A stretch of DNA of 37,269 bases from Novosphingobium sp. (GCA_029247785.1 JAQWKP010000340.1:1-37269), one strand, 5' to 3'; positions 15,549 through 35,391 are shown, counted from the first letter of the stretch. Numbers and translations are program-made. Notes: generated from the letters alone by a model not told the origin.

Positions 15549-18500
15549 TGCGGCTGCTGCGCTTCCTCCTTGTCTTGATTGCGATCCTTATGGTCGCGGT
15601 GCCGTCGGCCCAAATCCTGGCGAGCGACGATGAAATGACGGTTGAGCGCGACTATTCGCTGGTAACCGCGCCGCCCGCTCCGGCCAGGCAGTCCGTTGCA
15701 GATGTCCGGATGAAATCGGAAGGCTGCCTGAGCTGCCACGTCGAGACCGATTCGGCCAGCATGCACGCCACGCCTGCGGTCCGGCTTGGCTGCACCGATT
15801 GCCACGGCGGCAACGCCACCATCAAAGGCAATCCCGAACTAGGCTTTTCCCATCCCGACTATGTCGCGGCGCGCGATGCTGGCCATGTCCTACCGAAATA
15901 TCCGGAAAGCTGGCACTTCCCGACTTCAGCCAACCCCAAGCGCGGCTACACCCTGCTCAACAAGGAAGCGCCCGAATTCGTCCGTTTCGTCAATCCCGGC
16001 GACTATCGTATCGCCCGCGAATCCTGCGGTGCCTGCCACCTCCCCGTTATCGAGGCTGCTGAACGCTCGCTAATGGCATCAGGCGCGATGCTTTGGGGCG
16101 GGGCCGCCTATAATAACGGCATTATCCCTTTCAAGAACTACGTCCTAGGGGAAGCCTACACACGCGAGGGTGAGCCAGCCAAGATAATTTCCCCTGGCTC
16201 ACCTGCCGGCACCCTGACAGCTGAGCAGCAGGCGCGCGGAGCCCTGGCAGCACTGTATCCGCTGCCCCGCTGGAATGTCATCCCGCCGGGAGACGTGTTT
16301 CGCGTCTTTGAACGCGGGGGTCGCAATATAAACTCGCAGTTCCCGGAAATCGGGCTGCCGAACCCGTCAGGCCAGATTCAGCGGCTCGAGGAGCCAGGGC
16401 GGCCCGACCTCAAGCAGTCGAACCGAGGTCCCGGCACAGGCCTGAGAGTCGCTATCCCGGCGCTCAACATCCACAAGACTCGGCTCAACGACCCTTTCAC
16501 CTGGTTCATGGGCACCAATGACCAGCCCGGCGACTACCGCAGCTCAGGCTGCACCTCATGCCATGTCATCTACGCGAATGACCGAGAGCCGCGGCACAGC
16601 CTGATCTATGCATCGCTAGGGCGGGATGGGCAGACGATCACAAAGGACCCCACTATCGCGGCCAAGCTGGAACCTGCTCAAAGCAACGATCACGGTGATG
16701 GCCAGAATGCGATGCCCCACGATAGCGACGACCGCGGCAAGACCCCGGGGCACGGCGACGGGCACAACTCGGACGGCAAGGCCAAAGAAAAAGGCCATCC
16801 CCTCCAGCATATCTTCACTCGCGCCATTCCAACGGCCCAGTGCATGAATTGCCACATGCATCAGCCTAACGTCTTCGTGAATCCCTATCTTGGCTACACT
16901 ATGTGGGACTATGAATCCGACGCGCCGAAAATGTGGCCCGGCCCTGAAAATGAAACGCCCCGGCCCGAAGGGATCAGCGACGAAGAATACCAAAGAGTAT
17001 ATAAGCAGCAGCGCTTTCCCACTGCCGAGGAAGTGCGTGCCATAAATGAGCGCAATCCCGAAGCCGCCGCAGCGAAGGGCCTATGGGGCGATATCGATTT
17101 CCTGCGCAACGTCTATGACCTCAACCCCGAGCTCAAGGACACGCAGTTCGCGGACTATCACGGCCATGGCTGGAATTTTCGTGCCGTTCTGAAGCGCGAC
17201 CGCGATGGCAACCTGCTCGATGCCGATGGCAATATCGTCGACCCCGACGATCCGGAGAAATGGCGCCGCAAGGATGAGGGCAAATTCGTCGAAGTGGGCA
17301 AAAATCCGGGCAAGACCGTCCACATGATGGATATCCATGCTGAAAAAGGGCTGCAATGCGCGGACTGCCATTTCGCGCAGGACAGCCATGGCAACGGACT
17401 TATCTACGGCGAAGTAGCCAATGCCGTCGAAATCGGCTGTAAGGATTGTCACGGCACTGCCGACGCATATCCGACCCTGCTAACATCGGGACCGGCGGCG
17501 CCCCCGACTGGCAATGACCTGACCCTGCTGCGCAATCCCGATGGCGAGCGCCGCTTCGAATGGCGCGAGGAACCATCCGGACGCAGGACGCTGATCCAGC
17601 GCTCGATCATCGATCCAGGCCTGCAGTGGGAAGTCAGCCTTGTCAGGAATTCGGTTGACGCTGCTTCGCCCGATTTCAACTCCAAATCAGCGCGCGCAAA
17701 GCTGATAAGCACGGCCGGAGCAGATGACGGCAATTATGCTTTCGGCCCCGGCATCACGGTGGAAAATCGCGCCCACAAGGATGACGAGATGGCCTGTTTC
17801 ACTTGCCATCTGTCATGGACAACGAGCTGCGGTGGCTGCCACTTGCCGATCGAGGCGAACTGGCAAACCTCGATGCACCACTATGAGGGCGAGACGACAC
17901 GCAATTTCGCAACCTACAACCCACAGGTTGCGCGCGACCAAATGTTCCAGCTGGGCAAGCACATGACGACCAAGGGCAGTCAAGTTGCGCCGATTCGTTC
18001 GACCTCGGCGCTCGTGCTGTCCTCGACCAACATCAACCGCGAACGGATCTATGTGCAGCAGCCGCCAATCTCGTCCTCGGGCTTTTCCAGCCAGGCATTC
18101 GCACCTCACTTCCCGCACACAGTTCGTAAGACGGAGACCAAGGCTTGCACCGATTGCCATCTCAGCGCCGATGAAGACAACAATGCGATTATGGCGCAGT
18201 TGCTGCTGCTCGGCACCAATTTTGTCAATTTTGTCGGCATCAACGCCTGGGTCGGGCTCGATGGTGGCTTTGAGGCCATACGGGTGACCGAATGGGACGA
18301 ACCGCAAGCAGTGCTTGGCTCTTACCTGCACCGCTATGCCTATCCCGACTACTATCGCCTGCATGTCGAGAAGAACGGGCGCGAGCTGAAGAATTGGGTG
18401 CGGGGCAAGTATTTTGATGGCAGCGCTTCCGGCGAAACCAAGGCGATCGAGCAATTCCGCAATGTCGTGCAGGGCACGCGTGGCGCCGTGGGCTGTCTGC

Positions 18501-19711
18501 AGATGCGCGGCGAATATATGTTCGTTGCCGAAGGCAAGGGCGGTTTGCACGTCTATGATATTGCCTCGGTCGGCAACAAGGGCATTTCCGACCCGGTCTT
18601 CAGCGCGCCTTTCTCCCCGCTCGGCCATGACACTCGGGTCAAGACCAGCAATGCCACCTGTATGGCGCTTGCAACTAACCAGCCTGTCGCACCCGACCGT
18701 AGTCGCGCCATGGATGCCACCGAGATGATGGACAGCGACGGCAATCCGATCATCCAGGAAGACGGCACTCCGCTGACTTTGCTTGAGGCCAACCAGGAGC
18801 AGAAATTTCTGCCGATTTATGATTACGCTGTCATCACTGACAGTGAAGAGGGCCTGATCCTTGTCGACATCAACACCATGGCGGACGGCGAATTCCGCAA
18901 CAACAAGCTCAAGCGTGCGGCGACCTGGAATCCAGACAAAGTACTCGCGGGCGCGCGCCACATCACCCTGGCCGGCGAAATCGCTTACGTCACTGCAAAT
19001 GCCGGACTCGTCGTTGTCGACCTCACCGACCCGCTCAATCCCGTGCTCGCCTCGGTCCAACCGCTAAGAGATGCCCGCGCAAGCGCAGTGCAGTTCCGCT
19101 ACCTTTGGGTGACAGACGCTGAGGGATTAAAGCTGTTCGACGTTACTGATCTGCGCAGACCGGTCGCCGTTCCATCGGGCACGGTCTCGCTAGCCGACGC
19201 GCGCCGAATCTATCTCGCGCGCACCTACGCATATGTCGCTGCGAAGCAGGACGGGTTGGTGATCGTCGACGTAACTCAACCTGGATCGCCGAATATATAC
19301 GAGAAGGTTACTCTGGGCGGACGGCTCAACGACGCCGAGGACGTGATCGTCGGTTCGACAAACGCTACCCTCTTCGCATATGTCGCCGACGGCAGAAACG
19401 GACTCAAGGTCCTGCAGCTGACCTCGCCATCGACCCAGCCTAATTTCTACGGCTTCTCACCCGCGCCGAAACCGCAGCTAATCGCCTGGGCAAAAACGCC
19501 TTCGCCGGCGCGAGCGCTGTCCAAGGGGCTTGATCGTGACCGGGCGGTCGATGAAACAGGCGGCCAAATGGCTATCTTTGGTCGCCTCGGATCGCGGCCC
19601 TTCACCCGACCGGAAATGGAAAAGCTGTTCCTCAACCGGCAGCGCGTGCCCTTCAAGGTCACCGACACAGTCGACATGTCGACATGGGTCCCGCTGCCCG
19701 CGCCGCAGTGA
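15548..19711 (+). CDS. Large decaheme c-type cytochrome with C-terminal LVIVD-repeat (beta-propeller-like) region
   Basis: 1387 aa; N-terminal signal-like MRLLRFLLVLIAILMVAVPSAQILA; ten CXXCH (CLSCH, CTDCH, CGACH, CTSCH, CMNCH, CADCH, CKDCH, CFTCH, CGGCH, CTDCH); C-terminal repeats such as GLVVVDLTDPLNP, GLKLFDVTDLRRP, GLVIVDVTQPGSP. Start overlaps the upstream stop (TGATG). Confidence 0.92.
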   Translation: MRLLRFLLVLIAILMVAVPSAQILASDDEMTVERDYSLVTAPPAPARQSVADVRMKSEGCLSCHVETDSASMHATPAVRLGCTDCHGGNATIKGNPELGFSHPDYVAARDAGHVLPKYPESWHFPTSANPKRGYTLLNKEAPEFVRFVNPGDYRIARESCGACHLPVIEAAERSLMASGAMLWGGAAYNNGIIPFKNYVLGEAYTREGEPAKIISPGSPAGTLTAEQQARGALAALYPLPRWNVIPPGDVFRVFERGGRNINSQFPEIGLPNPSGQIQRLEEPGRPDLKQSNRGPGTGLRVAIPALNIHKTRLNDPFTWFMGTNDQPGDYRSSGCTSCHVIYANDREPRHSLIYASLGRDGQTITKDPTIAAKLEPAQSNDHGDGQNAMPHDSDDRGKTPGHGDGHNSDGKAKEKGHPLQHIFTRAIPTAQCMNCHMHQPNVFVNPYLGYTMWDYESDAPKMWPGPENETPRPEGISDEEYQRVYKQQRFPTAEEVRAINERNPEAAAAKGLWGDIDFLRNVYDLNPELKDTQFADYHGHGWNFRAVLKRDRDGNLLDADGNIVDPDDPEKWRRKDEGKFVEVGKNPGKTVHMMDIHAEKGLQCADCHFAQDSHGNGLIYGEVANAVEIGCKDCHGTADAYPTLLTSGPAAPPTGNDLTLLRNPDGERRFEWREEPSGRRTLIQRSIIDPGLQWEVSLVRNSVDAASPDFNSKSARAKLISTAGADDGNYAFGPGITVENRAHKDDEMACFTCHLSWTTSCGGCHLPIEANWQTSMHHYEGETTRNFATYNPQVARDQMFQLGKHMTTKGSQVAPIRSTSALVLSSTNINRERIYVQQPPISSSGFSSQAFAPHFPHTVRKTETKACTDCHLSADEDNNAIMAQLLLLGTNFVNFVGINAWVGLDGGFEAIRVTEWDEPQAVLGSYLHRYAYPDYYRLHVEKNGRELKNWVRGKYFDGSASGETKAIEQFRNVVQGTRGAVGCLQMRGEYMFVAEGKGGLHVYDIASVGNKGISDPVFSAPFSPLGHDTRVKTSNATCMALATNQPVAPDRSRAMDATEMMDSDGNPIIQEDGTPLTLLEANQEQKFLPIYDYAVITDSEEGLILVDINTMADGEFRNNKLKRAATWNPDKVLAGARHITLAGEIAYVTANAGLVVVDLTDPLNPVLASVQPLRDARASAVQFRYLWVTDAEGLKLFDVTDLRRPVAVPSGTVSLADARRIYLARTYAYVAAKQDGLVIVDVTQPGSPNIYEKVTLGGRLNDAEDVIVGSTNATLFAYVADGRNGLKVLQLTSPSTQPNFYGFSPAPKPQLIAWAKTPSPARALSKGLDRDRAVDETGGQMAIFGRLGSRPFTRPEMEKLFLNRQRVPFKVTDTVDMSTWVPLPAPQ

Positions 19712-20364: not shown

Positions 20365-20703
20365 ATGAACATTGCCGCAAGCCCCTGGTTACTCATGTTC
20401 ATAGCAATCGGAATCGAAGTGCTCGGCACGATGGCGCTCAAGATTTCCGACGGATTCGCTAAGTGGCACTGGGGTATGCTCGCAATATTGCTCTATGCGA
20501 TTTGCTTCTGGCTGCTAGCCCATGTCCTCAAGGCGATTCCGATCGGAATCACTTATGCAATCTGGTCGGGAGCTGGAATCGTGGCAATCACGGCCATCGG
20601 CTATATGTTCTTCAACGAACAACTCGGTTGGCTCCAACTGTTATTTATCGGGCTTGTGCTGATCGGCTGCGCTGGCTTGAGACTGACCACCAGCGTCGCC
20701 TGA
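20365..20703 (+). CDS. Small multidrug resistance (SMR/EmrE-like) transporter
   Basis: 112 aa, four TM segments; EVLGTMALKISDGF...IPIGITYAIWSGAGIVAITAIGYMFFNEQL typical of SMR. Confidence 0.92.
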   Translation: MNIAASPWLLMFIAIGIEVLGTMALKISDGFAKWHWGMLAILLYAICFWLLAHVLKAIPIGITYAIWSGAGIVAITAIGYMFFNEQLGWLQLLFIGLVLIGCAGLRLTTSVA

Positions 20704-20707
20704 CGCC

Positions 20708-21562
20708 TCAGCCAAGTCCCCGGCGCTCTTCGTCGATATGCTTGACGATTTCCTGCAGGGATTTGTCAAAGCGAGCGAAAACGCGGTGGTCATCGACGGC
20801 TTCGAAATGGGAGATCAGGCGTTCGCCATCCCAGTGATGCAATGCGTAAACCGGGTATTCGTCGGTAATCATTGCGCGCTTGTCAGGTTTTTTGGGGTTG
20901 ATAGGCCTCAAATCGAGAGCGACGAGCGGCGCGGTCGAGGCGCAGACTGTTAACGGCACTCCATTCCACAATGCGTGGATGTTGCGATGAAGGTGTCCGC
21001 TAAGGATCGCCTGAACTTGGCCATGACCGGCGATACTATCGGCAAACCTCTTCATCCAGGGCTCATTGGCGTTACCATCAAGCCAGCTGATTCCCGATTC
21101 GAACGGCGGATGATGCATCGCAATGATCGTCGGCGTATTCGGATGGGCGGCGAGCTCAGATTGCAGCCAGGCCGCACGAGCCTCACAGAATGCACCGCCA
21201 TGCCGCCCTGGCTCAAGCGTATCGAGCAGAAGGACCCGCGCGTCCTCGGCTTCGATCGCAAATTGGATGAAGCTCTCATTGCTGGGCGTGTCAGGAAAGG
21301 CGGCCAGCATGGCATCACGATCATCATGGTTGCCGACCATCGGCCAGACCGGAAACGGGCAGATATCAACAGCCTCGGCGAGTCGCTTATAGCTTGGAGC
21401 ATCGCCAAATTCGGTGAGATCGCCTGTCATCACGAGCGCGTCGGGTGCGTTGGGCGCATCGACAAGCCTCTGGATAACCGCCTCGAGGCGTTCCATGTTG
21501 TATTCGTCCGGGTTTCCCTGGTCAAAACCGATATGAACGTCAGTGATCTGTGCGATCAGCAA
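20708..21562 (-). CDS. CpdA-like metallophosphoesterase (candidate 3',5'-cyclic nucleotide phosphodiesterase)
   Basis: 284 aa; MLIAQITDVHIGF, VMTGDLTEFG, MVGNHDDRD, AMHHPPFESG, ILSGHLHRNIH are the metal-ligand motifs of class III cyclic nucleotide phosphodiesterases. Confidence 0.87.
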   Translation of the reverse strand: MLIAQITDVHIGFDQGNPDEYNMERLEAVIQRLVDAPNAPDALVMTGDLTEFGDAPSYKRLAEAVDICPFPVWPMVGNHDDRDAMLAAFPDTPSNESFIQFAIEAEDARVLLLDTLEPGRHGGAFCEARAAWLQSELAAHPNTPTIIAMHHPPFESGISWLDGNANEPWMKRFADSIAGHGQVQAILSGHLHRNIHALWNGVPLTVCASTAPLVALDLRPINPKKPDKRAMITDEYPVYALHHWDGERLISHFEAVDDHRVFARFDKSLQEIVKHIDEERRGLG

Positions 21563-21616: not shown

Positions 21617-23356
21617 TCAGCCTTGTTCTTTGGCCCGAGAATTCCGCTTTCTGTCGGTTGTATCCACCGCTCCTTGTCCCGTCATGTGATAACCATGGCA
21701 CATAATACAACTCGACGGCACTTTTGCTTTCACCGTGTCTTCGCCGAGATGGCATTGACGGCAGTCCTTGATGCCTGGAAGCAGCAGGTCCTTTGCGCTG
21801 GTTGATGTTGGCGCCGCGTGGCAACTCGTGCAATCCTCTTGCTTATGGGCTGCGTGGTCAAACCAACCATGGTCCATGTACCGAGATACAAGTGTCACTG
21901 GCTGCACACCGATCTTGCCATCGGCGCGCGATGCGGGTCTGTGACATTCCCCACAAATTCCATCTTTCGACAAGGCTATCCCGACTTTCAATCCTTTCCA
22001 TGCCGCACCAGAGAAATTGAAATGATAGGGTCGGCCCTGCGCGTAATCGCCTGGCCGGCGGCGCGCTGAAATGGACTGCCGCCTGAAATCCCCCGCGCTT
22101 AGATCCGCGATCACCTGATCGACATCGCCATGCCTTAGCTTGCGGAAAATGCCACCAACCTGATCATAAGTCAGGCTGTGACAGGCCTCACAATCCCGCT
22201 CCATGTCGATTTTCTGGAAGCGAATTCCGTCCTCTGTCGGCCTGTGACAGTCCTTGCATTGCAGTCCGCCCGCGCCGTAACCGGCCTCACTGCCAATATT
22301 CGCCGCCATTCGCGCAACCCCGCCCTTTGTCCGGAGATGAAGTTTATGCGGAAATGTCAGGCCACTGTCTTCCCGCGGACGCCTGTCCAGCGAAACGCGG
22401 ACCGGCTTGCCGATGGTGGAATCGGTGATAATGGCCGGCGCGAACTGCGGATGCTGGCTACCGAAATCAACTGCTTCGCCGAGGCTGGTATCGGGCAAGT
22501 TCTCCTTGAGCATGCCATGGCAGTCTGCACAAAATGCCTGAGGCGCCGGCTCCATGAACCGATTGCCCTCATGCTCTGTATGGCAGTCCGCGCAGGCTCC
22601 CGGACCTTCCTTCCCAAATGCATGAGCGACGGACCGGAGGAGCTTAGTTCCCAGCGGCCTGCTTCCGTGTGCCGCGTCCAGCCGGGTTAAGTCGGCATGG
22701 TCATGCAGATCGGTGTGACAGGACTTGCAGGTTTCATCCCTCACCGATTCGAAAGCGCGAACATGGCAGGTTTCACACTGATCCTTCAGACCGTGATGGG
22801 CGAGGCTCAGATCGCCGGAGCTCCAGCTGGAATCGCCAATAACCTGCTGCTTGGCCTCGACATCGCGTGTGACGTGGCTGACGATCGGAACAGCAAGAAA
22901 CGACAAGAGTATGAATGCAGCCAGGGCCCACGACATGACGCGCTTGCTCGGCAGTACGCCCGCCAGCGAGAAGCCTAGCTTCTGTTCTAGATCGCCCGAC
23001 TTTGTGGCTGAGTCCTCGACCTGCCTGACAGTCAGCAGAACATCATCGGCGTCGGCAGAGATGGTGATGCGATATGTGCCGAAGCCGAGTTCGCCACCAC
23101 CGCTCCTATCAATTGTGGCTTGTGACGTTTCGACGCCGTCGAGCGAAAACCCCAGCGTGCCGGTCGCCTCGACACTTAGCCTGCCCCCCCCATGCTCAGT
23201 GATAGTCGCGTGCTGCGGCTCGATCGCGAGGTCGGGCAAGTGAATCCCATTCTCTGCCGCCCGTCCGACAGACACGCTCGATCCGGCATGTTCATAGTCT
23301 CGAACAATCTCGCGACCGGTAGCCGTGAACTCGACCGTCCTGAGTTTGAATGCCAT
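21617..23356 (-). CDS. FHA domain - transmembrane helix - decaheme cytochrome c fusion protein
   Basis: 579 aa; N-terminal FHA pattern SVGRAAENGIHLPDLAIEPQHATITEHGGG, single TM VMSWALAAFILLSFLAVPIVSHVT, then ten CXXCH (CETCH, CKSCH, CADCH x2, CKDCH, CEACH, CGECH, CTSCH, CRQCH, CIMCH). Confidence 0.9.
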   Translation of the reverse strand: MAFKLRTVEFTATGREIVRDYEHAGSSVSVGRAAENGIHLPDLAIEPQHATITEHGGGRLSVEATGTLGFSLDGVETSQATIDRSGGGELGFGTYRITISADADDVLLTVRQVEDSATKSGDLEQKLGFSLAGVLPSKRVMSWALAAFILLSFLAVPIVSHVTRDVEAKQQVIGDSSWSSGDLSLAHHGLKDQCETCHVRAFESVRDETCKSCHTDLHDHADLTRLDAAHGSRPLGTKLLRSVAHAFGKEGPGACADCHTEHEGNRFMEPAPQAFCADCHGMLKENLPDTSLGEAVDFGSQHPQFAPAIITDSTIGKPVRVSLDRRPREDSGLTFPHKLHLRTKGGVARMAANIGSEAGYGAGGLQCKDCHRPTEDGIRFQKIDMERDCEACHSLTYDQVGGIFRKLRHGDVDQVIADLSAGDFRRQSISARRRPGDYAQGRPYHFNFSGAAWKGLKVGIALSKDGICGECHRPASRADGKIGVQPVTLVSRYMDHGWFDHAAHKQEDCTSCHAAPTSTSAKDLLLPGIKDCRQCHLGEDTVKAKVPSSCIMCHGYHMTGQGAVDTTDRKRNSRAKEQG

Positions 23357-23371: not shown

Positions 23372-24235
23372 CTACCAGTAGTAGAGCACGCTGATGACGT
23401 GCGCGAGAAGCGCGGCTATCAGTGCGATCGTCGCTGGAACGTGAATGTAGAGCCAAACCTCCAGCATTCCCCTTAGTCGCATCTGTCGCCGGATTCGTTC
23501 AAGCTGCGCCTTGCGCCGAACCATGAGCTTTTCGACCCGATCCATAGCGGTGTCGGAAGAATCAGAACCGGCCAGTCCCTCGATAGCAGCCTGCGTTGCA
23601 CAATCTGGATGGTTGCCGGATAGCCTTCGAAATAGGCCATGGTCGAGAGGATCTTCCGCAAGGGCCTCAAGCACAAGGTCGGCCTGCACCCGGGCAAGCG
23701 GCTGCGCTGCATCGTGGAGCTGACGATCGAGCGACGTGATGGCGTCAACCATTTGCCCTTGAGTCATTTCCTCCCGGTTGCTGCTGAGCGCGCTTGGCAA
23801 GGTCGCATACAAATAGGTCCCGAATACTCCTGACAGGATCACCAGCATCATCATGGCATAGGCTAAGGTATGTACGTTCCAGCCCAACTGAAAGCCGGTG
23901 TGCAGCGTGGCAATTACGATAAGCGAGAGCCCGAGATAAACATGGGCCGACGTCCAGGCTTTGAGCGACCAGTTGCCCTGCGTGATCATTCGCTTGCGAA
24001 TACCCAGAAGCGAAAGCCAGAGGATTAGAAGGGCTCCGATCGTACCCAGAATATAGCCGATCCAGCTCCCCCCGTTCGGGCGTGGCTCGACATCCGCCAA
24101 CAGGTAGGCAATCAATGATACGACGCTGGCGCCAAGCGCAATCTTCAGCCAACGAAAGCTCCTGTGACGCAGGAAGCTTTCATGGCTGCCCGGGCCGCCG
24201 CGCGCCCTGTTTGCAGTGTGAGGCTTGGTGGCCAT
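23372..24235 (-). CDS. Putative b-type heme membrane protein (cytochrome b561/ferric-reductase-like)
   Basis: 287 aa, about five TM segments; spaced histidines in TM segments (SAHVYLGLSLIVIATLHTGF, NVHTLAYAMMM, WLYIHVPATIALIAALLAHVISVLYYW) around a soluble helical insert; TGATG overlap with the upstream gene. Confidence 0.7.
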   Translation of the reverse strand: MATKPHTANRARGGPGSHESFLRHRSFRWLKIALGASVVSLIAYLLADVEPRPNGGSWIGYILGTIGALLILWLSLLGIRKRMITQGNWSLKAWTSAHVYLGLSLIVIATLHTGFQLGWNVHTLAYAMMMLVILSGVFGTYLYATLPSALSSNREEMTQGQMVDAITSLDRQLHDAAQPLARVQADLVLEALAEDPLDHGLFRRLSGNHPDCATQAAIEGLAGSDSSDTAMDRVEKLMVRRKAQLERIRRQMRLRGMLEVWLYIHVPATIALIAALLAHVISVLYYW

Positions 24236-26682
24236 CAGGCGTCTTCACTCATGCGCGTAGCTGAAAGGAAGCCCTCTGGCGAAACGCGGATTGCTGCACC
24301 CGTAGGGCAGGCGCGAACGCACGATGGGCCGCCATCGATACCCGAGCACATGTCGCATTTGATGGCGCGCTTGGGACTTTCTTCGCCTTCAATAATATTC
24401 TTCTTGCGCCAGCTCTTGGTTGGCTCACCAGGGCCGGGCCCCTTGCCCAGAAATAGCCAATTCAGCAGAGAAGGCTTGGCCGGCGGTACACTGTCCATGC
24501 GGATCACCCCATAGGGACAGTTTCTCTGACAATTGCCGCATCCGATGCAGGTCTCGTCGATGAAGACTTCTCCGTCGATGCCGCGCTGGATCGCGTTGGG
24601 TGGGCAGTCGGCCATGCAATGCGGGTGTTCGCAATGACGGCAGCTGGTCGGAACGTGAAGATGCGCATAGGTCGTACCCGCCTCGCGATCGAGGCGCGAG
24701 AGACCGTCATGACTATCCGCGCATGCCTTTTCACAATTGTCGCAGCCTACACAGAGCGTTTCGTCAATCAGCAGGACGTCCGTCGCCTCGCCGATGCCGT
24801 TGTCGACAAGGAATTGGGCGGTCTGCGAATACATATCGACGACGCCGGAAAAATTCTCCTTGCGGCTTTCAATGAACGTGTTGACCTCCCTGCGTTTTTC
24901 CATTTCCACCTGGGCCTTGCGGAGCAAGTCTGGCTCGCGTTCAAGCAGGCGGACAAAGGCATCGCCAGGCAGCCTGATGACCTCGGATTTGATCGCCGCG
25001 CGCACCGTCGCGTTGCGGGGCGCACCGTCGATAACGCCCATTTCCCCAACATAAGAGCCAGCAGGCAAATAGCTTAGAAACACTGGCTTGCCGGCAATCT
25101 CGCGCTCGACGATCATCGAGCCGCGGCGGATGATATAGATATCCTCCCCCATCTCGCCTTCCTGAAGGACGACCTCGCCAGCCCGCTTGTTCTGCACTTC
25201 CGCGCCCTCAACCAGTTCGGCGACATCCTCCTTGGTAAGTCCCGAGCCAAATATCTGGAGCAATTGCCGTTCGATCGAGATCCGGTTGACCGCCCGCGCA
25301 GCGCTCGGAACCGTCGCGATCAATTTGAGCGCCGCAGTACGCAACAGCTCGACAACTACAAGGTCCTCGGCCGCACGGATCGTTGCGCCTCGGCGCCTAC
25401 CCGAGATCAGGCCGACTTCGCCGAAAATCGAGCCTTCCTCGATCGGAACGGTAATCGAAGGGTCTTCCTTGTTGACCTCGACCAGCACCGAGCCTTGCGC
25501 GATGGCAAATAGCGAAGAGCCGGGCGCATTGCGGTCGAAAACCGCGTCCCCGCGAGAAAAGCTTTTCACTCGGCTGTCGATCAGCAATTCGCGAAGTTGC
25601 AGAGGCGAGAGTTCCTTGAATATCTCGATGTTACTGCCAAACAGATCAAGCCACTCGGCGACACTCCGGCTGCCTGGCAGCGCAGCAAATTTTTCAGTCA
25701 GGATCGGCTCGTCTGCGGGCTTGAGCGTCGTATTGCCATTGAGAAATTCTACGACATCATAGCCCTGATTCATACAGTGCTTGATCAGCGGGTAGCCAGC
25801 CAGCGCACCGATGACATGGATCCCTGAACGGGTCGTCTCGAACACTGGCGAGAGTACCGGAAAGGCTTCGCGTTCCTCGCTGGTGAATTCAATGTCGCAG
25901 CCCTCGACGAAACTGCGCGGCGGCGCCGAGCCGGTTCGGGCGATAATCCGCCCACACTCGATGGTTTCCTGCCCGTCGCGTGTGTCGAGCACGAGCTTTC
26001 CTTCGCGAACCTCGGCAGGCGTCGTCTCGGTCCTCACATGCACACGGCCGGCCGCTCCTGCCTCCTTCAGCAATTCGACATTGGCCTTCTTCGCACGCGC
26101 GAATTCCGGGCTGCGGTTGAGGATCGTGACCACGTTGCGCTGCGCTGGATCGGCGGCAAGGCCAAGCGCGTTCTCGATTCCGGCGTCGCCCGATCCAACC
26201 ACAGTGATATGTTCGTCAATATACTCGGTCGGATCGTCGAGCTGGTACTGGATATGTGGCGAGTCAGCGCCGTCGCAACGCAGCTTGTTGGGATTGCCCT
26301 GGGTTCCGATCGCGAGAATGACGGCTTCGGCTTCGATAGTGTCTCCGCCTTTGAGCTGGAGAGTGAAATTGCCCTTCTCGCCGTCGATGCCGACAACATC
26401 CGCGTTGTAGCGGACGGCAATCTTGTTAGTCTCGGCCTGCTCGTCCCAAATTCCGAGAATGGTCTCGCGGCTGCCCGCGTCGAAATCGAGGTCAGACCTG
26501 AGGACCAGCATGGATGGCGTCGCCATGACGTGCTTGCCCTTCTGGTACTTGTAGATCGTGTCCGACAGGTGGTCGGTCTTTTCCAGCAACACGTGCGCAA
26601 TGCCAAGCTCGGCAGCGCGGCCAGCAGCGCTCAACCCCGCCGGACCAGATCCGACTATGGCAATCCGAACGCGTACTTCCAC
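24235..26682 (-). CDS. FAD/NAD(P)-dependent oxidoreductase fused to two cyclic-nucleotide-binding domains and a 4x[4Fe-4S] ferredoxin (HycB/DmsB-like) domain
   Basis: 815 aa; Rossmann IAIVGSGPAGLSAAGRAAELG; second Rossmann ITVVGSGDAGIENALGLA; two cNMP-type segments (GSVLVEVNKEDPSITVPIEEGSIFGEVGLISGRRRGATIRAAED and GSMIVEREIAGKPVFLSYLPAGSYVGEMGVIDGAPRNATVRA); Fe-S motifs CVGCDNCEKAC, CRHCEHPHCMADCP, CIGCGNCQRNCP, CDMC...CVRACP. Confidence 0.92.
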   Translation of the reverse strand: MEVRVRIAIVGSGPAGLSAAGRAAELGIAHVLLEKTDHLSDTIYKYQKGKHVMATPSMLVLRSDLDFDAGSRETILGIWDEQAETNKIAVRYNADVVGIDGEKGNFTLQLKGGDTIEAEAVILAIGTQGNPNKLRCDGADSPHIQYQLDDPTEYIDEHITVVGSGDAGIENALGLAADPAQRNVVTILNRSPEFARAKKANVELLKEAGAAGRVHVRTETTPAEVREGKLVLDTRDGQETIECGRIIARTGSAPPRSFVEGCDIEFTSEEREAFPVLSPVFETTRSGIHVIGALAGYPLIKHCMNQGYDVVEFLNGNTTLKPADEPILTEKFAALPGSRSVAEWLDLFGSNIEIFKELSPLQLRELLIDSRVKSFSRGDAVFDRNAPGSSLFAIAQGSVLVEVNKEDPSITVPIEEGSIFGEVGLISGRRRGATIRAAEDLVVVELLRTAALKLIATVPSAARAVNRISIERQLLQIFGSGLTKEDVAELVEGAEVQNKRAGEVVLQEGEMGEDIYIIRRGSMIVEREIAGKPVFLSYLPAGSYVGEMGVIDGAPRNATVRAAIKSEVIRLPGDAFVRLLEREPDLLRKAQVEMEKRREVNTFIESRKENFSGVVDMYSQTAQFLVDNGIGEATDVLLIDETLCVGCDNCEKACADSHDGLSRLDREAGTTYAHLHVPTSCRHCEHPHCMADCPPNAIQRGIDGEVFIDETCIGCGNCQRNCPYGVIRMDSVPPAKPSLLNWLFLGKGPGPGEPTKSWRKKNIIEGEESPKRAIKCDMCSGIDGGPSCVRACPTGAAIRVSPEGFLSATRMSEDA

Positions 26683-26802: not shown

Positions 26803-27729
26803 ATGACACAACATACAACCCGACCTTACCCGATTGCCCGGATCGCATTGATCGTCGCTGCGCTGGCAGCGGCATTTGCGGTGGGATTTACGATCTCGAG
26901 AAGCGCGGATGAGGGTGGCACCAGCGACCTCACTGTTCCCGATGCCGTCTCCACAGTAGCGTCGGTTTCAAGCCTGGAGGAAAAAACCAAGGCAAATCCC
27001 GAAAACGCACCCGCCTGGCTGGAGCTAGGCCAGGCCTATTTTGTCGATAGCCGGTTCGCAGACGCAGCGCGGGCCTATGACAAGGCGACCGCCCTCGTTC
27101 CGGACGACGCGATGGCGTGGTCGGCGCTCGGCGAGGCGCGGGTCATGGCAAGCGAGCGTGATCCGATGCCAGCCGAGGCGCTCGCCGCATTCAAGCGCGC
27201 CATCGCCCTCGATAGCAAGGAGCCACGAGCACGGTATTTTCTCGCCGTCAAACGGGACCTTGATGGAGACCACGAGGGGGCCATCGCTGACTGGCTCGCC
27301 GTGCTTATGGACACACCCGAGAACGCTCCCTGGCGCGGCGACTTGATCCGCACGGTCGAGCAGGTCGGCAAGATCAACGGGATCGACGTCGCCGCTCGCC
27401 TCGCAAAGGCCGGCGCGCAATCCCCTCCCGCACCGCCCATGCCTGCGGCAGCGCGCGCCATACCCGGGCCCTCGGCGCAGGACCTTGCAGCGGCTTCGCA
27501 AATCCCGCCGGGCGAGCAGCGCGAAATGGCCGAAGGCATGGTCGCGCGGCTGGAAAGCCGTCTCAAGGGCGACCCCGCCAATGTCGACGGGTGGCTGATG
27601 CTGATCCGCAGCCGGGCAACGCTTGGCCAGAAGGACAAGGCGAGCCAGGCGCTCAAGGACGCAGCAGCAGCTAACCCGGCACAAGCGGCCGCGATTCGCC
27701 AGCAGGCCGCGACGCTCGGCGTGAAGTGA
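26803..27729 (+). CDS. CcmI/NrfG-like TPR protein, putative cytochrome c biogenesis factor
   Basis: The ORF opens at 26038 but that part is antisense to the reductase gene; ATG at 26803 gives a TM anchor (IARIALIVAALAAAFAVGFTI) plus TPRs and C-terminal AASQIPPGEQREMAEGMVARLESRLKGDPANVDGWLMLIRSRATLGQKDKASQAL, a CcmI-like region. Confidence 0.83.
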   Translation: MTQHTTRPYPIARIALIVAALAAAFAVGFTISRSADEGGTSDLTVPDAVSTVASVSSLEEKTKANPENAPAWLELGQAYFVDSRFADAARAYDKATALVPDDAMAWSALGEARVMASERDPMPAEALAAFKRAIALDSKEPRARYFLAVKRDLDGDHEGAIADWLAVLMDTPENAPWRGDLIRTVEQVGKINGIDVAARLAKAGAQSPPAPPMPAAARAIPGPSAQDLAAASQIPPGEQREMAEGMVARLESRLKGDPANVDGWLMLIRSRATLGQKDKASQALKDAAAANPAQAAAIRQQAATLGVK

Positions 27730-28206
27730 CGCGCGCCTCAGGAACTTCACTCGCAGTCAGGCAATCCCGCGTCAAAGTGCCGGGTTTGCAGTGGATATAA
27801 CTACTCGAACTTCACCCGTATGAAGCATGGAAAGAGCTTTGGGAAACGCCTGCGGCATTGCCAATTTTTCGGCAAAATTAGAATGGTTTACGACGATGTG
27901 AAAGAGCGGCCCTCTACATCGCAAATGTCATTCGTGTAGGAAAGCCTTTCGACCCGCGCTACGGTACCGTGACGTGCTCCGCCACAAGAGGGGGATTATC
28001 TTGAGCATGGCATCCAAAATCTGCCTGAACCGACGGTGTGCCAGACGCTATGGAACACGCTGAAGGTTTGTGCGACTGCTTTGGCAAGAATGAGTGACAC
28101 CGCAGGCATCAACCAGGCGTCACGGTCGGCGCCGTTCAGTTTTCGGTTTGGTCGAGAGTCGGATTGCAATTGATGCTTTTTGCTTTGCGAGGGCCTTCGC
28201 TTTACG

Positions 28207-30069
28207 ATGAACCAGGTGATGTCTGATAAGAAGAAATCAATAGGCGCATTCCTATATATTACCACCTATGCCATGGTGGTTTGTTATATATTATTTACGC
28301 ATGTTATAGCATTCAGCCATCCTTATTCATTCTTCGTACGACATATGGCTGTTATTACGTCCTTGTCCGGGCCATTTTTACTTATAATGATCTGGTCTGA
28401 TAAGGCTCCGGCTGCCAGGGCCGCTTTTGCTGTCGTGTTTCTTATTATTATGCTTCATTTATTCAGCATACTGGCTCAATACTTTGCGAATATCCAGATA
28501 TCGCAGAATATCTCTCTGGTATTTCTGTGGGACAACTGGCCAGCCATCGAGCCCTTTCTTCCAACCTGGCAGGTCATAACGATTCCGATCGGAATCGGCC
28601 TCGCCGCATGGCTTGCCGCGATATCCCTCAAACGAGTAACGGCAACGATGGGGCAAACGCTTTCAACCACCTGCCTCCTCGGCATTATCGTAGCCTCAAT
28701 TGCCCTGTCACTGATGGCCGGCAAAACACAGAAATTCTTTCGCGACCCGGTCCTCGGCATGCTTGGATATGGTGAGCGCTTTCAGAGTACCGACCGCATA
28801 GTCCACTTGACCGAGGCGGAGGCGGCGGCCCGCGCGGCATATGTTCCGTCTGCCAACAGACCAAAGCGCAACATCGTCATCTTCATGGCGGATTCTGTGA
28901 ATCCAGATCACCTCGCCTTGTTTGGTCACACGCGCCCTACGAGCCAGTTTCTGGAGCGTATGCGCGATGAATATCGCTTCTTTGACTCGGCAATAGCCCG
29001 CTCCACTTGCACAGATTCGGTCTGCGGCGTTCTCAGCACCCTGGCCAGCAGGAGCTTCGTGAACACACCGCCATTTGGCGCTCTAGGCATAGGTCAGGTG
29101 CTCCGTGAGCATGGCTATAAGACGCACCATGTACTTGTCAGTGATCATCGCCGCTTCAAACACAACTACTATTGGCGTTTTCTTGAAGAAGAAGCTGATA
29201 CAATCTATGATTACAAGTCGAGCGATACGCCGTTGAATTCAGATCGGATCGCAATCGAAGGCGTGGAAGCCCTGCCCTCGGCCGCCGAGGGTCCCGCCTT
29301 GATATTCGTATTTTTCTTTTCCCCTCATATGTCTGGAGAGGAAGAGAGTCGGTTCAAGCGTTTTGGCCCATTTCTCGACAATAAGGCGATCCTCCAGAGG
29401 AGGCGCGTCAATACGGATGAAGAACGAACAGCGTTGCAAATACACTATGACAACAAGCTTGTTCAGCTTGATAACTATATGAATTCCGCCTGGGGCGCAC
29501 TTGCTAGGAAGGGTTTCACCCAAGACTCGATATTCATGTTCCTCTCCGATCATGGAGAGGAAATGGGAGATAACGACATAGTGGGACACGCGTTATCTGA
29601 CACGATCACAGAAGGCCTGGTGAGGATACCATTGGTCATCGCGTCAAACGAGGCCGCGGTGCCTGACCTCAGCCGTGCGGTGCCTCAGCAACTGGATGTC
29701 ATGCCTACACTTCTCGATATGCTTGACTTGCCTGCTCCTCGAATTTGGGATGGAATTTCTCTTTTTACCAAGCCAAGCGATGCCGCCATCTTCCATGAAT
29801 TCGGGTTCAAGACCACGTTCATGGGACTGGAATGCAATGCCGTTCTCGACAGGGTGCAAGAGGAGCGGCTTGAAAAATACATAAGATGCCGCAGCCCCAA
29901 CAAGCCAACCAGGCATCAACTTTTCGATATCGCAGCTGACCCAAACCAAAAGACCAATTTATGGGGCAAGCGCGACCAGGCGACCCGGGAAATCTGGGAA
30001 GAAAAACTAGACGCGCACTTTCAATTCAGACCCGGCAATTCGCGAGGGAAGTCCAGGCTCCGGAACTGA
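28207..30069 (+). CDS. Sulfatase-fold (alkaline phosphatase superfamily) membrane hydrolase/transferase, possibly phosphoethanolamine- or phosphoglycerol-transferase-like
   Basis: ORF 28180-30069; N-terminal hydrophobic TM bundle, then NIVIFMADSVNPDHLALFGHTRPTSQFLERM and FMFLSDHGEEMGDNDIVGHA metal motifs. No CxPSR sulfatase motif; candidate nucleophile region is ARSTCTDSVCGVLSTLAS. Start could be 28180, 28207 or 28219. Confidence 0.8.
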   Translation: MNQVMSDKKKSIGAFLYITTYAMVVCYILFTHVIAFSHPYSFFVRHMAVITSLSGPFLLIMIWSDKAPAARAAFAVVFLIIMLHLFSILAQYFANIQISQNISLVFLWDNWPAIEPFLPTWQVITIPIGIGLAAWLAAISLKRVTATMGQTLSTTCLLGIIVASIALSLMAGKTQKFFRDPVLGMLGYGERFQSTDRIVHLTEAEAAARAAYVPSANRPKRNIVIFMADSVNPDHLALFGHTRPTSQFLERMRDEYRFFDSAIARSTCTDSVCGVLSTLASRSFVNTPPFGALGIGQVLREHGYKTHHVLVSDHRRFKHNYYWRFLEEEADTIYDYKSSDTPLNSDRIAIEGVEALPSAAEGPALIFVFFFSPHMSGEEESRFKRFGPFLDNKAILQRRRVNTDEERTALQIHYDNKLVQLDNYMNSAWGALARKGFTQDSIFMFLSDHGEEMGDNDIVGHALSDTITEGLVRIPLVIASNEAAVPDLSRAVPQQLDVMPTLLDMLDLPAPRIWDGISLFTKPSDAAIFHEFGFKTTFMGLECNAVLDRVQEERLEKYIRCRSPNKPTRHQLFDIAADPNQKTNLWGKRDQATREIWEEKLDAHFQFRPGNSRGKSRLRN

Positions 30070-30097: not shown

Positions 30098-30673
30098 TCA
30101 CCCAAAGATTGCCGCGATCGCGTCCTGGCTTTCGTAAAGGAAGACGAAAAACGTCAGCGACAATCCGACCTGGAAGGTGCGATAAGCGTATGCGAGCAGG
30201 CGGTATTTCTTGGTCTGAAGGGCCATGCCGTTCTGGTAGATATCGCGCGCCATGGTTGAAAGCACGCGACCGTCGGTCTCGCTCGCTTCCATCATCCGGT
30301 CGATATAATCGTCCTCCAGCATGTGCGTGAACACACCGAAGAACAACAGGTTTCGCCTGGCGCCTGTGGGTGGCTTAGCCATGACCTTGGGGACCACCGC
30401 GGCGACTGCGAAACTCGCCGAAATGAATGCCGAAAGCGCCAGGATCAACAGCGAAATCTTGTAGCTCCCTGCCGCCGCCTGGCCGACCGCGATGGAGAAT
30501 ACGACAAAAGACGCACCCATCAGCAAGCTCGCCTTCTGATCGGCCATCTGGCTCAATTGCATGTGCACCATCATGGAGGTGCGCACCAGGTGGATGGCGT
30601 GGTTGGAATAGCTGGTGTCGTCGTATTTCGTGAGTGACGAGTCTGTTTGTTCCGCCAATTTATGGCCCTCCAT
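30098..30673 (-). CDS. Pycsar-effector-family (PycTM/DUF5706-like) membrane protein
   Basis: 191 aa; HLVRTSMMVHMQLSQMADQKASLLMGASFVVFSIAVGQ, two-TM core, C-terminal DIYQNGMALQTKKYRLLAYAYRTFQVGLSLTFFVFLY match the PycTM layout. Confidence 0.78.
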   Translation of the reverse strand: MEGHKLAEQTDSSLTKYDDTSYSNHAIHLVRTSMMVHMQLSQMADQKASLLMGASFVVFSIAVGQAAAGSYKISLLILALSAFISASFAVAAVVPKVMAKPPTGARRNLLFFGVFTHMLEDDYIDRMMEASETDGRVLSTMARDIYQNGMALQTKKYRLLAYAYRTFQVGLSLTFFVFLYESQDAIAAIFG

Positions 30674-32212: not shown

Positions 32213-33301
32213 TCACTGCACCTTGGAAAAATCGAGATCCTTGGCAGTAAAGACGCGGATTGGCTCACCCTGGCGCACGCGGATGGTCGGCCCCATCTGT
32301 CCATTCTGATTGACAGCCGCGGCTGCAGCAGACTGGCCGCCGCCGGCGATGATCACGCCGCTATTGCCGCCAATCGCCGACAACCCGCCGACCACCGAGA
32401 GCAGCAGGGCCGAGCCGAAGCGCGAGAAGAAATGCGAATTGACCTTGCCGGCCAACCCGGTCTCGCCGCCAAAACCGATCGCCGGTGAGCCGAGATTGAC
32501 CGAGACCCCGTCGGGCCGGATAACTCTTGTCCAGATCACATAGGCGCGTTTCTGGCCCGCCGAGAGGCCTGACTTATACTGGCCGATCAGCCGCGATGAG
32601 CGCGGCACCAGGACATGCCTTCCATCGAAACTCCTGACATCGGCGCTGACGATCGCGCGGACAAAACCGGGAACGTCGGTGTTGATCGCGGTCTCCAACA
32701 CGGCGGGGATCAGCGTGCCCTGAGTCACGGTGGTCGCCGGATCGAAATTCGCCGCAGCTGTTGCGGTGGTGTTGCCGAGCCCGCCCAGCCGCGCGGCAAA
32801 GTCCTCATTGGAGTTGCCCTTGCCCGCAGCGCCCACCGTCGGCGCCAGCGCAGCCACGACGGGGCCGGGAAGGGCGCTGGCATCGAACGTCACGGTGGGG
32901 CTGGAATGCGGATTGACGGCAAATGACGAAGCCGCCTGGGGCGGTGCCGCCAGCACCGGAGAAGGCTGTACCTCTTGCGGAGCAGGCGCGACCTGCGGCA
33001 GCACGCCCGGCTGCGCGGGAGCCGGAACTGCTGCCACCTGCCGCACGGGGGCAGGCGAGGACGCCTGCTGCGTAGCGTCTTCGCGGGCCGCGTTCATGCT
33101 CCATAGCGTCAAGCCGCCCAGCGCAGCGACGATGGCGATTCCGGCGACCAGCCCGAGCCCGTCACCGCGTTTTCTCTGGCTGACCACCGGCAGGACGGTG
33201 CGCGTCGCCAGATCGATAATCTCAGCGCCTTCACCAGCTTCGCGCGGATCGCGGGCCCGGTCTTCGCTGGACCTTTCGCGCAATGTCGAATTGGGAGCCA
33301 T
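32213..33301 (-). CDS. virB10: Type IV secretion protein, VirB10/TrbI family
   Basis: 362 aa; TM near N-terminus, Pro-rich spacer, TQGTLIPAVLETAINTDVPGFVRAIVSADVRSFDGRHVLVPRSSRLIGQY...GQKRAYVIWTRVIRPDG. Confidence 0.93.
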   Translation of the reverse strand: MAPNSTLRERSSEDRARDPREAGEGAEIIDLATRTVLPVVSQRKRGDGLGLVAGIAIVAALGGLTLWSMNAAREDATQQASSPAPVRQVAAVPAPAQPGVLPQVAPAPQEVQPSPVLAAPPQAASSFAVNPHSSPTVTFDASALPGPVVAALAPTVGAAGKGNSNEDFAARLGGLGNTTATAAANFDPATTVTQGTLIPAVLETAINTDVPGFVRAIVSADVRSFDGRHVLVPRSSRLIGQYKSGLSAGQKRAYVIWTRVIRPDGVSVNLGSPAIGFGGETGLAGKVNSHFFSRFGSALLLSVVGGLSAIGGNSGVIIAGGGQSAAAAAVNQNGQMGPTIRVRQGEPIRVFTAKDLDFSKVQ

Positions 33302-33304
33302 CGA

Positions 33305-34153
33305 TCAGTTCCTTTCCAATGAGCGGGAGGCTGGCAGCTTGGCGGCCAAGAACACAAGCCCAGAAGACGTTGGCGTAGACGATGCCGAGGAGTTGCTGGC
33401 ATCTGACACCTCATGCAGGTTTTCAAGCGTCGCGCTGGCCTTGCCGGATCGCAACAAAATCCGCGAAGGCACTTCGCCGATGACGATGGTATCGCCCCTG
33501 ACCGAGTAATTGACCGGGCCTTCATCACCCTGCTCGTTTTCGACCAGTATCGCCGGAATCGCTCGCTTGGCCGGCCACAGCAGATAGGTAGCATTGCCGT
33601 CATCATAGATGCGCGAGGGCATCAGCTCGGCATCGCCCTTGCGCTTCCAGGCAAAGTTGAGCGTCGCCGGGTCTGCGGGCGCAATCGCCGGATCGCCCGA
33701 CAGCAAGTCCTGCTCCAGCTCATTCAGCGCCAGCTGCCGTTCCTCGCGAGCCTTCGCAGCGGCGAGCTTCTCTTCTTCGGGATAGGTGAAGCGCAGCAAG
33801 TAAACCGGCTTGGCTCTGGACGAGGCGACAAGATCGAAGAAATAGGTGTGGCGGTCGGTCACCACCGTCATATTGGTGCGCGCGCCGGCCTCGAGCGGCT
33901 TGACGAACAGCAGGTTCGCCCGCTTGTTCGGCGTTATCTGCCACTTGGCCGAATCGCCCACCGCGACATTCTCGATATGCTCGTTCTCGCCGAAACTGAT
34001 GGTCGCCTGAACCCCGAGCCTGCCATCGATCCGCACGACTTCGTCTTCTGCAAAGACCCGGCTCACCAAGCGGTCGTCGGCCAGCGCCAAAGCCGCGGGA
34101 GCCATGGCCGCCAGCGCCGTCACTAGGGCCACGAGCTGCTTGCGCATTCTCAC
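33305..34153 (-). CDS. virB9: Type IV secretion protein, VirB9/TrbG family
   Basis: 282 aa, signal peptide; DSAKWQITPNKRANLLFVKPLEAGARTNMTVVTDRHTYFFDL and C-terminal WPAKRAIPAILVENEQGDEGPVNYSVRGDTIVI. Confidence 0.92.
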   Translation of the reverse strand: MRMRKQLVALVTALAAMAPAALALADDRLVSRVFAEDEVVRIDGRLGVQATISFGENEHIENVAVGDSAKWQITPNKRANLLFVKPLEAGARTNMTVVTDRHTYFFDLVASSRAKPVYLLRFTYPEEEKLAAAKAREERQLALNELEQDLLSGDPAIAPADPATLNFAWKRKGDAELMPSRIYDDGNATYLLWPAKRAIPAILVENEQGDEGPVNYSVRGDTIVIGEVPSRILLRSGKASATLENLHEVSDASNSSASSTPTSSGLVFLAAKLPASRSLERN

Positions 34154-35391
34154 TGCATCTTCTCCTTGCCCATGCTTTTCAACATGGCGCGCCCGCTGTC
34201 ATTCGATGCTGCGCGAAAGCGGCTGCCAATGCCGCGCGCGCGATCTTGCACGCGTGATTGCAGCGGTTCGACACCACCGCCTGCCACCAGAGTTGTCACC
34301 CTGCGGTGGGCCGGGCTGCTCGCTGGCTCATGCGCACTACTCGTCGCCAGCGCCTCGGATTGCTGCAGATGCGCCCCATTGGCTGCGCTCGTTGCGGGTC
34401 GATGCATCCCGGCGGCAGGGGCCGCAGTCGGCACCGTCGCAGGCAATGGGGCGGACAAGGCAACCTCTCTCTCACCGCGGCCGGAAGAGGCGAGGCCGAA
34501 GACCTGCCAGCCAGACACCATCGTCACCGCCACTTTCATCACCATCGCCATCAGCGCAACATGCACCGATGCGACCAGGAACAGGGCCATGGCGGCCCGT
34601 CCGCTGATCTCGCCAAGCAACGCGCTCTGCGACAAAGCGGAAATTACCGGCACCAGCATTTCCAGCGCAATCGAGCCGCCCAGCACCACCAGCAGCGGAA
34701 CCAGCGCTGTCAGCACCACGCCTTTCAGCCAACCCGCCGTCAGCCCGCGCGTGCTTCCAAACAATGCGAGCACCACGAATATCGGGCCCAGCGCCATCAG
34801 CACCGCCAACGCAATCCGCGCAGCCAGCAGCACGCCCACCGTGCCGAGCAACAGCAATAACGCGCCAAGCCACATGATATCGGCCGGTTTGAACATGCCG
34901 GCTGCACCGCTGGCAAGCGCCTGTGAGCCAGCTTCGGTAGCACCTGCAGCACCGGCCGCGCTCGCCAACTTGCCAATTTCGGAAATCGCGGCGAACACGA
35001 TGTCGATGCGGTCAGCGAAGATCAGGCTCGCCGAGCCCTTAGAGCCTGTCAGCATCGATGCGACCCAGTCTGGGCCCGCCACGGCGAGGTTCCACAGCAC
35101 CTGACTATAGGCGATCCAACTTGTCGCAAAGGTCAGCACCAGGCCCAGCGTCAACATGCGCGGAGTCAGAGCCGAAATGCCCAATGTCGATCGCCCGGTC
35201 AGCAATGACAGCGCAAAAAAGGCGATATACAGCGTCAGGCAAATCGTCAGCACCGGCACCAGCGCACCCTCGGCCCCGAATAGCCGGTTAAAGGCGCCAG
35301 CCGTCATCTCGCCAGCCACGCAATCGACCGCGCGCAACGACGGAGCGACCCCAGCCGAGGCAAATTCGACGAGCTGGTCGCAAGCGCTCAT
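34150..35391 (-). CDS. virB6: Type IV secretion protein, VirB6/TrbL family
   Basis: 413 aa polytopic; LVPVLTICLTLYIAFFALSLLTGRSTLGISALTPRMLTLGLVLTFATSWIAYSQVLWNLAVAGPDWVASMLTG. Confidence 0.87.
   Translation of the reverse strand: MSACDQLVEFASAGVAPSLRAVDCVAGEMTAGAFNRLFGAEGALVPVLTICLTLYIAFFALSLLTGRSTLGISALTPRMLTLGLVLTFATSWIAYSQVLWNLAVAGPDWVASMLTGSKGSASLIFADRIDIVFAAISEIGKLASAAGAAGATEAGSQALASGAAGMFKPADIMWLGALLLLLGTVGVLLAARIALAVLMALGPIFVVLALFGSTRGLTAGWLKGVVLTALVPLLVVLGGSIALEMLVPVISALSQSALLGEISGRAAMALFLVASVHVALMAMVMKVAVTMVSGWQVFGLASSGRGEREVALSAPLPATVPTAAPAAGMHRPATSAANGAHLQQSEALATSSAHEPASSPAHRRVTTLVAGGGVEPLQSRVQDRARGIGSRFRAASNDSGRAMLKSMGKEKMQ

Follow-up and report, generated by a model that had tools for sequence, protein, structure and literature searches.

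The locus described here raises the question of whether a respiratory-type electron-transfer complex may be controlled directly by a cyclic nucleotide, and by which path its electrons would leave the cytoplasm. In the window, that is, the whole stretch of 37,269 nucleotides of Novosphingobium sp. DNA that was analysed (contig C50 of a 3.99 Mb genome, which was used for the genome-wide searches), an earlier note had described an 815-aa ORF joining a FAD/NAD(P) domain, two cNMP-binding domains, and four ferredoxin-type cysteine motifs. This ORF, here called RED, is present, begins with a GTG start codon, and lies on the minus strand, which the note had not given (Table 1). All of these parts were recovered by a Pfam search, with Pyr_redox_3 at 1.8e-27 (aa 9-292), cNMP_binding at 1.6e-31 for two stretches together, and Fer4-type domains across aa 639-796. 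The nearest matches to RED were found in Novosphingobium, and full-length colinear homologues occurred in more than 80 genomes, so that chance or a frameshift artefact could be ruled out. For conservation, 89 full homologues were extracted, mostly from Sphingomonadales (68-84% identity), together with other alphaproteobacteria and distant Pseudomonadota (~45-67%); the RED operon was compared across Pseudomonadota. An AF2 model was built from an alignment of 34 sequences (one plasmid-record sequence was left out of the structure alignments) and had a mean pLDDT of 76.9, with mostly 80-95 in the flavin and cyclic nucleotide-binding domain (CNBD) regions and ~32-74 in the Fe-S region. Together with the products of two adjoining genes, CYTB and CYTC, RED would form an inner-membrane complex that passes NADPH electrons to the periplasm with a cAMP-regulated input, a reading to which we give a probability of about 0.55.

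Table 1. Features of the window and of related RED loci (nucleotide positions refer to the window unless a locus is named)
Feature	Position	Strand	Description
MFS/HlyD/OEP genes	5792-9914	-	Tripartite efflux
c554-like protein	10164-11543	+	Multiheme; four CxxCH plus one CxxxxCH
HbpS-like-domain protein	11543-13525	+	Probable lipoprotein
O704	13527-15548	+	Putative outer-membrane barrel; the listed ORF begins at 13434, its signal peptide near 13527
O1387	15548-19711	+	1387 aa; secreted decaheme cytochrome, LVIVD repeats, ten CxxCH
SMR protein	20365-20703	+	Efflux
PDE	20708-21562	-	Class III cyclic-nucleotide-phosphodiesterase-like; listed with a TTG start codon, but where it truly begins is uncertain
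CYTC (P0002)	21617-23356	-	FHA-like ~28-79, one TM ~140-158, ten CxxCH; predicted periplasmic decaheme
CYTB (P0003)	23372-24235	-	287 aa; five-helix membrane protein, four invariant His, putative diheme cytochrome b
RED	24235-26682	-	FAD/NAD(P)H aa 6-307, CNBD-A ~373-460, CNBD-B 499-582, four 4Fe-4S motifs 644-792
CcmH/CycH-type TPR protein	26803-27729	+	Cytochrome c maturation; divergent from RED
Sulfatase/phosphoethanolamine-transferase-like	28180-30069	+	
PycTM-domain protein	30098-30673	-	Membrane protein, Pycsar effector-type
Type IV secretion/conjugation genes	32213-37256	-	
CagX/VirB9-like	33305-34153	-	
VirB4-like	35388-37256	-	
RED-CYTB fusion	L107:3052-6420		1123 aa
RED-CYTB fusion	L108:8850-12203		1118 aa
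Second RED copy	L106:8485-10959		Genome G001; CYTB and CYTC undetected beside it

The two CNBDs of RED scored well above the cNMP_binding cut-off of 27.5 bits, with 51.3 bits for copy A and 66.7 bits for copy B, and these scores lend no support to the earlier claim that the first copy is nearer to the canonical form; despite its lower score, copy A is the more strictly conserved among relatives. The phosphate-binding cassette (PBC) of CNBD-A reads GEVGLISGRRRGATIRA, with E422 and R431 in 89/89 homologues, and that of CNBD-B reads GEMGVIDGAPRNATVRA, with E547 in 87 and R556 in all 89; the PBC glycines, G421 and G546, are likewise kept in 89/89. The PBC-like pattern that had been noticed in both copies is therefore a nearly invariant GE...R across the 89 homologues. 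Loss of the pocket Glu or Arg had been set beforehand as the refutation check, and the alignment retained both residues in both copies (87-89 of 89), so that this sequence test leaves the ligand pockets unrefuted. An SGRRR stretch in CNBD-A, in which S427, G428, R429, and R431 are invariant, is more strictly kept than in a generic CNBD. In the AF2 model, each domain has a beta-roll and long C-terminal helices, and its GE motif begins a short PBC helix (422-427 and 547-552); the fold matches of RED include a PKA regulatory domain in complex with cAMP (5j3u). The residue that follows the PBC Arg (G432 in copy A; N557 in copy B, mostly Thr/Ser in relatives) was considered as a guide to cAMP or cGMP and was not diagnostic; cAMP is weakly preferred as the ligand. 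RED resembles the regulatory regions of PKA and PKG, and CRP, in its CNBDs with an intact PBC, here in tandem, but carries them inside an oxidoreductase instead of a kinase regulator or a transcription factor.

The genomic context was also informative with regard to cyclic nucleotides. The closest solved relative of the PDE product is Rv0805 (1.2e-23), and its metal-site motifs (DxH, GD, GNHD, H, GHxH) are complete and at least 99% conserved among 69 homologues; it is like Rv0805, CpdA, and SpdA in this respect and differs in that it scored below both NCBIfam cut-offs (147.7 against 400 and 93.2 against 225). PDE was found near RED in 71 of the 81 loci compared, several of the remaining ones being short contigs, and a PDE homologue was present in 71/71 RED genomes among the 201 genomes of the family (Fisher 9e-46, phylogeny ignored). 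In the more distant loci PDE was absent from the side of RED, and the adjacency is limited to Sphingomonadales. Three Guanylate_cyc-family matches were detected in the genome, the best of which carries a Lys and an Asp that we take to be the residues typical of adenylate cyclases, so that the genome encodes a cyclase of this type. One further CNBD was recovered from the genome at E ≤ 0.001; it is FNR-like, carries a Cys cluster near its N-terminus, and lacks the GE...R cassette. As far as the profile reaches, RED holds the sole PBC-bearing CNBDs of this genome, while such domains are more numerous in other Sphingomonadaceae.

The alternative that survives best keeps the same complex and the same electron path, with CNBDs that have no cyclic nucleotide as their ligand in the cell, or have another ligand. 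Their role would be in spacing, dimerisation, or docking, and control would be exerted by expression only. It is general knowledge that many CNBD-fold domains have no ligand, and the invariant SGRRR stretch exceeds what generic cNMP binding needs; however, the PBC Glu and Arg, which are lost in typical non-binders, are retained in both copies. Similarly, PDE is unlinked to RED outside Sphingomonadales, whereas within the family its linkage and complete co-occurrence, together with the adenylate-cyclase-type gene, argue for a ligand. We therefore regard this alternative as rather unlikely, and control of RED by a cyclic nucleotide as having slightly better than even odds; a direct gating by cAMP or cGMP, as the earlier note had suggested, may be the form of this control.

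The flavin domain was placed by sequence and by fold among Bdr/YpdA and the TrxR-like ferredoxin-NADP reductases (7a7b, 3ab1), and the fold search with the AF2 model aligned it to the NADPH-dependent Bdr 7a7b with a TM of 0.86 on the target. The FAD/NAD(P) motif residues G11/G13/G16, G163/G165, and R190 are at least 99% conserved in the 89 homologues. The invariant Arg190 matches, in the alignment, the Arg that follows beta-2 in Bdr (YRGG) and in FNR (HRGH), a position which we take to be that where TrxR, FNR, and Bdr bind NADPH. Because of this match, NADPH would be the more likely donor over NADH, and the glycine motifs, the basic residue after beta-2, and the fold match are all those of an NADPH-type TrxR/FNR fold. 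The domain has Cys at positions 136, 243, 262, and 303 only. A thioredoxin reductase function was rejected, since the CxxC redox disulfide is absent, as was that of a Bdr/YpdA bacillithiol disulfide reductase, since the GPCG active-site motif of Bdr reads GPAG in RED, with Ala at the Cys position, and the score against the YpdA family was 112.5 bits for a curated cut-off of 339.9. By these tests, RED is no disulfide reductase; it shares with Bdr/YpdA and the TrxR-like FNRs the FAD/NAD(P)H fold and the invariant Arg at the NADPH site, and differs from them also in its fusion to two CNBDs and a polyferredoxin domain.

The Fe-S part contains 16 cluster Cys in four motifs (644/647/650/654, 681/684/689/693, 712/715/718/722, and 776/779/788/792), all conserved at 99% or more in homologues down to ~45% identity. 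Its best solved relative is formate hydrogenlyase subunit 2 (HycB, 7.4e-22), in agreement with the DmsB/HycB type that had been assigned to these clusters. As in HycB, DmsB, and FdnH, the four 4Fe-4S motifs are proposed to be coupled to a membrane heme-b subunit, but in RED they are covalently joined to an NAD(P)H reductase and do not belong to the partner of a molybdoenzyme or a hydrogenase. AegA and YgfT also have a HycB-like Fe-S part and a FAD/NAD(P) part in one chain; RED differs from them in the reversed order of these parts and in the extra CNBDs, and scored 66.8 bits against a family cut-off of 1003.

The proposed membrane partner is CYTB, whose gene overlaps the RED stop codon by one base. 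All 87 homologues keep H98, H112, H265, and H279, and in the CYTB model (pLDDT 85) the first two lie on helix 91-113 and the last two on helix 229-286; the two His pairs on TM helices, each spaced by 14 residues, follow the pattern of diheme b proteins of the b561 or ferric-reductase-like kind. Judging from the positive-inside residues, one pair would lie near each membrane face, and CYTB is proposed to be a trans-membrane diheme cytochrome b. No Pfam family exceeded its cut-off (weak PF01292 and PF01794 matches, at best 1.4e-5 for PF01292 in locus L110), and neither the PDB sequence search nor Foldseek with the CYTB model gave a significant match; the homology of CYTB to a named family is unproven. 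The proposed path is similar to that of NADPH oxidase and MsrPQ, from cytoplasmic NAD(P)H through a flavin and His-ligated hemes on TM3/TM5 to an outside acceptor, but homology went undetected by Foldseek and by hhalign of the CYTB alignment against E. coli MsrQ, YodB, and HyaC, and the RED system has in addition an Fe-S relay and a decaheme exit. Two distant genomes, both from one genus, have RED and CYTB as a single continuous ORF (L107, L108), and this natural fusion is a strong argument for a physical partnership. CYTB and CYTC also adjoin RED in 7/8 distant loci. In L106, a 297-aa ORF that follows the second RED copy was considered as a CYTB and appears to be a spurious reading frame.

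The ten CxxCH motifs of CYTC are invariant among homologues. In its FHA-like domain, G31 and R32 were found in 82/82 sequences and H49 in 80/82, but the phosphothreonine-contacting position is Ser/Thr in only 7/82; a phosphothreonine switch was therefore rejected, and the domain is better viewed as a cytoplasmic docking domain. The divergent gene for a CcmH/CycH-type protein was found in 77 loci. A PycTM-domain gene adjoins the CycH gene in ~15 relatives; the sulfatase/phosphoethanolamine-transferase-like gene between the two in the window was found at that site in none of the relatives compared. The order of the type IV secretion genes is similar in locus L012.

Beyond PDE, a cluster codes for the c554-like and HbpS-like proteins, O704, and O1387. 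A Pfam search with O704 gave no match, and its barrel nature is suggested by sequence features. A PDB sequence search with O1387 returned nothing significant; with its LVIVD repeats, this decaheme protein represents an uncharacterised multiheme family of its own. RED was found in 71 and O1387 in 72 of the 201 family genomes, and all 71 RED genomes have O1387 (Fisher 2.5e-54, phylogenetic dependence ignored); the single genome with O1387 and without RED is a 67% complete assembly. Since at least 12 genomes (e.g., G214, G349, G499, and G502) have more than 90 kb between the two genes on a single contig, linkage does not explain this co-occurrence, and several genera, including that of the window, mix positive and negative species in full concordance. 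At the phylum level, O1387 was present in 11 genomes, all among the 15 with RED, and four distant RED genomes had no O1387. With extracellular electron transfer of the CymA/MtrCAB type, the RED system would share an inner-membrane entry, a periplasmic multiheme protein, and a cluster of a decaheme and a putative barrel, O704 and O1387 being candidates for a porin-cytochrome conduit; that system is fed by quinol, while the RED system would be fed by NAD(P)H under CNBD control, with a decaheme, O1387, that has no solved relative.

The NAD(P)H-dependent electron entry proposed by the earlier note is thus well supported, and the neighbours of RED, a putative membrane heme-b-type partner and a decaheme cytochrome, add to this support; the entry role stands, but the unit would be a complex of at least three subunits, linked to a larger multiheme system, and not a single ORF. 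A RED-CYTB-CYTC complex with its electron relay is highly probable, and, given the complex, an outward flow is the probable direction. Electrons running the other way, entering the multihemes from quinol or from donors in the periplasm or outside the cell and ending in cytoplasmic NADPH, are improbable: the flavin domain is close to TrxR-like FNRs (3ab1), which are able to run from reduced ferredoxin to NADP+, and inward-running multiheme conduits are possible from general knowledge, but the step from typical c-heme potentials to NADP+ is thermodynamically uphill without energy input, and an energy-coupling subunit was not seen in the operon. A RED that works by itself as a soluble redox enzyme, such as a thiol-disulfide or ferredoxin reductase unrelated to the cytochrome operon, would fit its Bdr/TrxR-like fold and the second copy in G001, but is most improbable given the RED-CYTB fusions, the operon kept across classes with its one-base overlap, and the missing redox disulfide.

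In the outward reading, cytoplasmic NADPH would reduce FAD in the TrxR/Bdr-like domain, from which electrons would pass through four 4Fe-4S clusters of RED into CYTB, where two b hemes would form a stack spanning the membrane. CYTC, with its ten c hemes, would receive them next, and multiheme partners that are secreted or lie in the outer membrane (the O1387 cluster) would carry them on to a final acceptor. The PKA-like CNBD pair lies between the flavin and ferredoxin domains, and cAMP would most likely change how these two redox domains are placed to one another, and thereby open or close the transfer from flavin to cluster; in Sphingomonadales, the cAMP signal would be reset by the Rv0805-like PDE encoded nearby. 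That cAMP at the tandem CNBDs switches the flow of NADPH electrons to periplasmic or extracellular multihemes, as a conduit gated by a second messenger, is a tentative proposal, with somewhat less than an even chance.

A literature search by domain and family names, which did not extend to subscription literature, found no description of the RED-CYTB-CYTC system. A transcriptome paper on Magnetospirillum reports a CNBD gene only, with none of these partners (PMC5459824), and a Sphingobium plasmid with the same gene order is annotated as 'cyclic nucleotide-binding domain-containing protein', 'hypothetical protein', 'cytochrome c3 family protein', and 'metallophosphoesterase'. Each part is of a known kind, in a combination not found described. 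If the reading is true, a respiratory-type electron-transfer complex, with its core genes all in one operon, would be under direct, non-transcriptional control by a cyclic nucleotide, as a redox counterpart of a cyclic-nucleotide-gated channel. RED would then be a non-transcriptional cAMP target in Sphingomonadales, including a genome with no other PBC-bearing CNBD over the threshold, and would feed an uncharacterised route from NADPH to multihemes outside the cytoplasm, in a group that is commonly considered aerobic.
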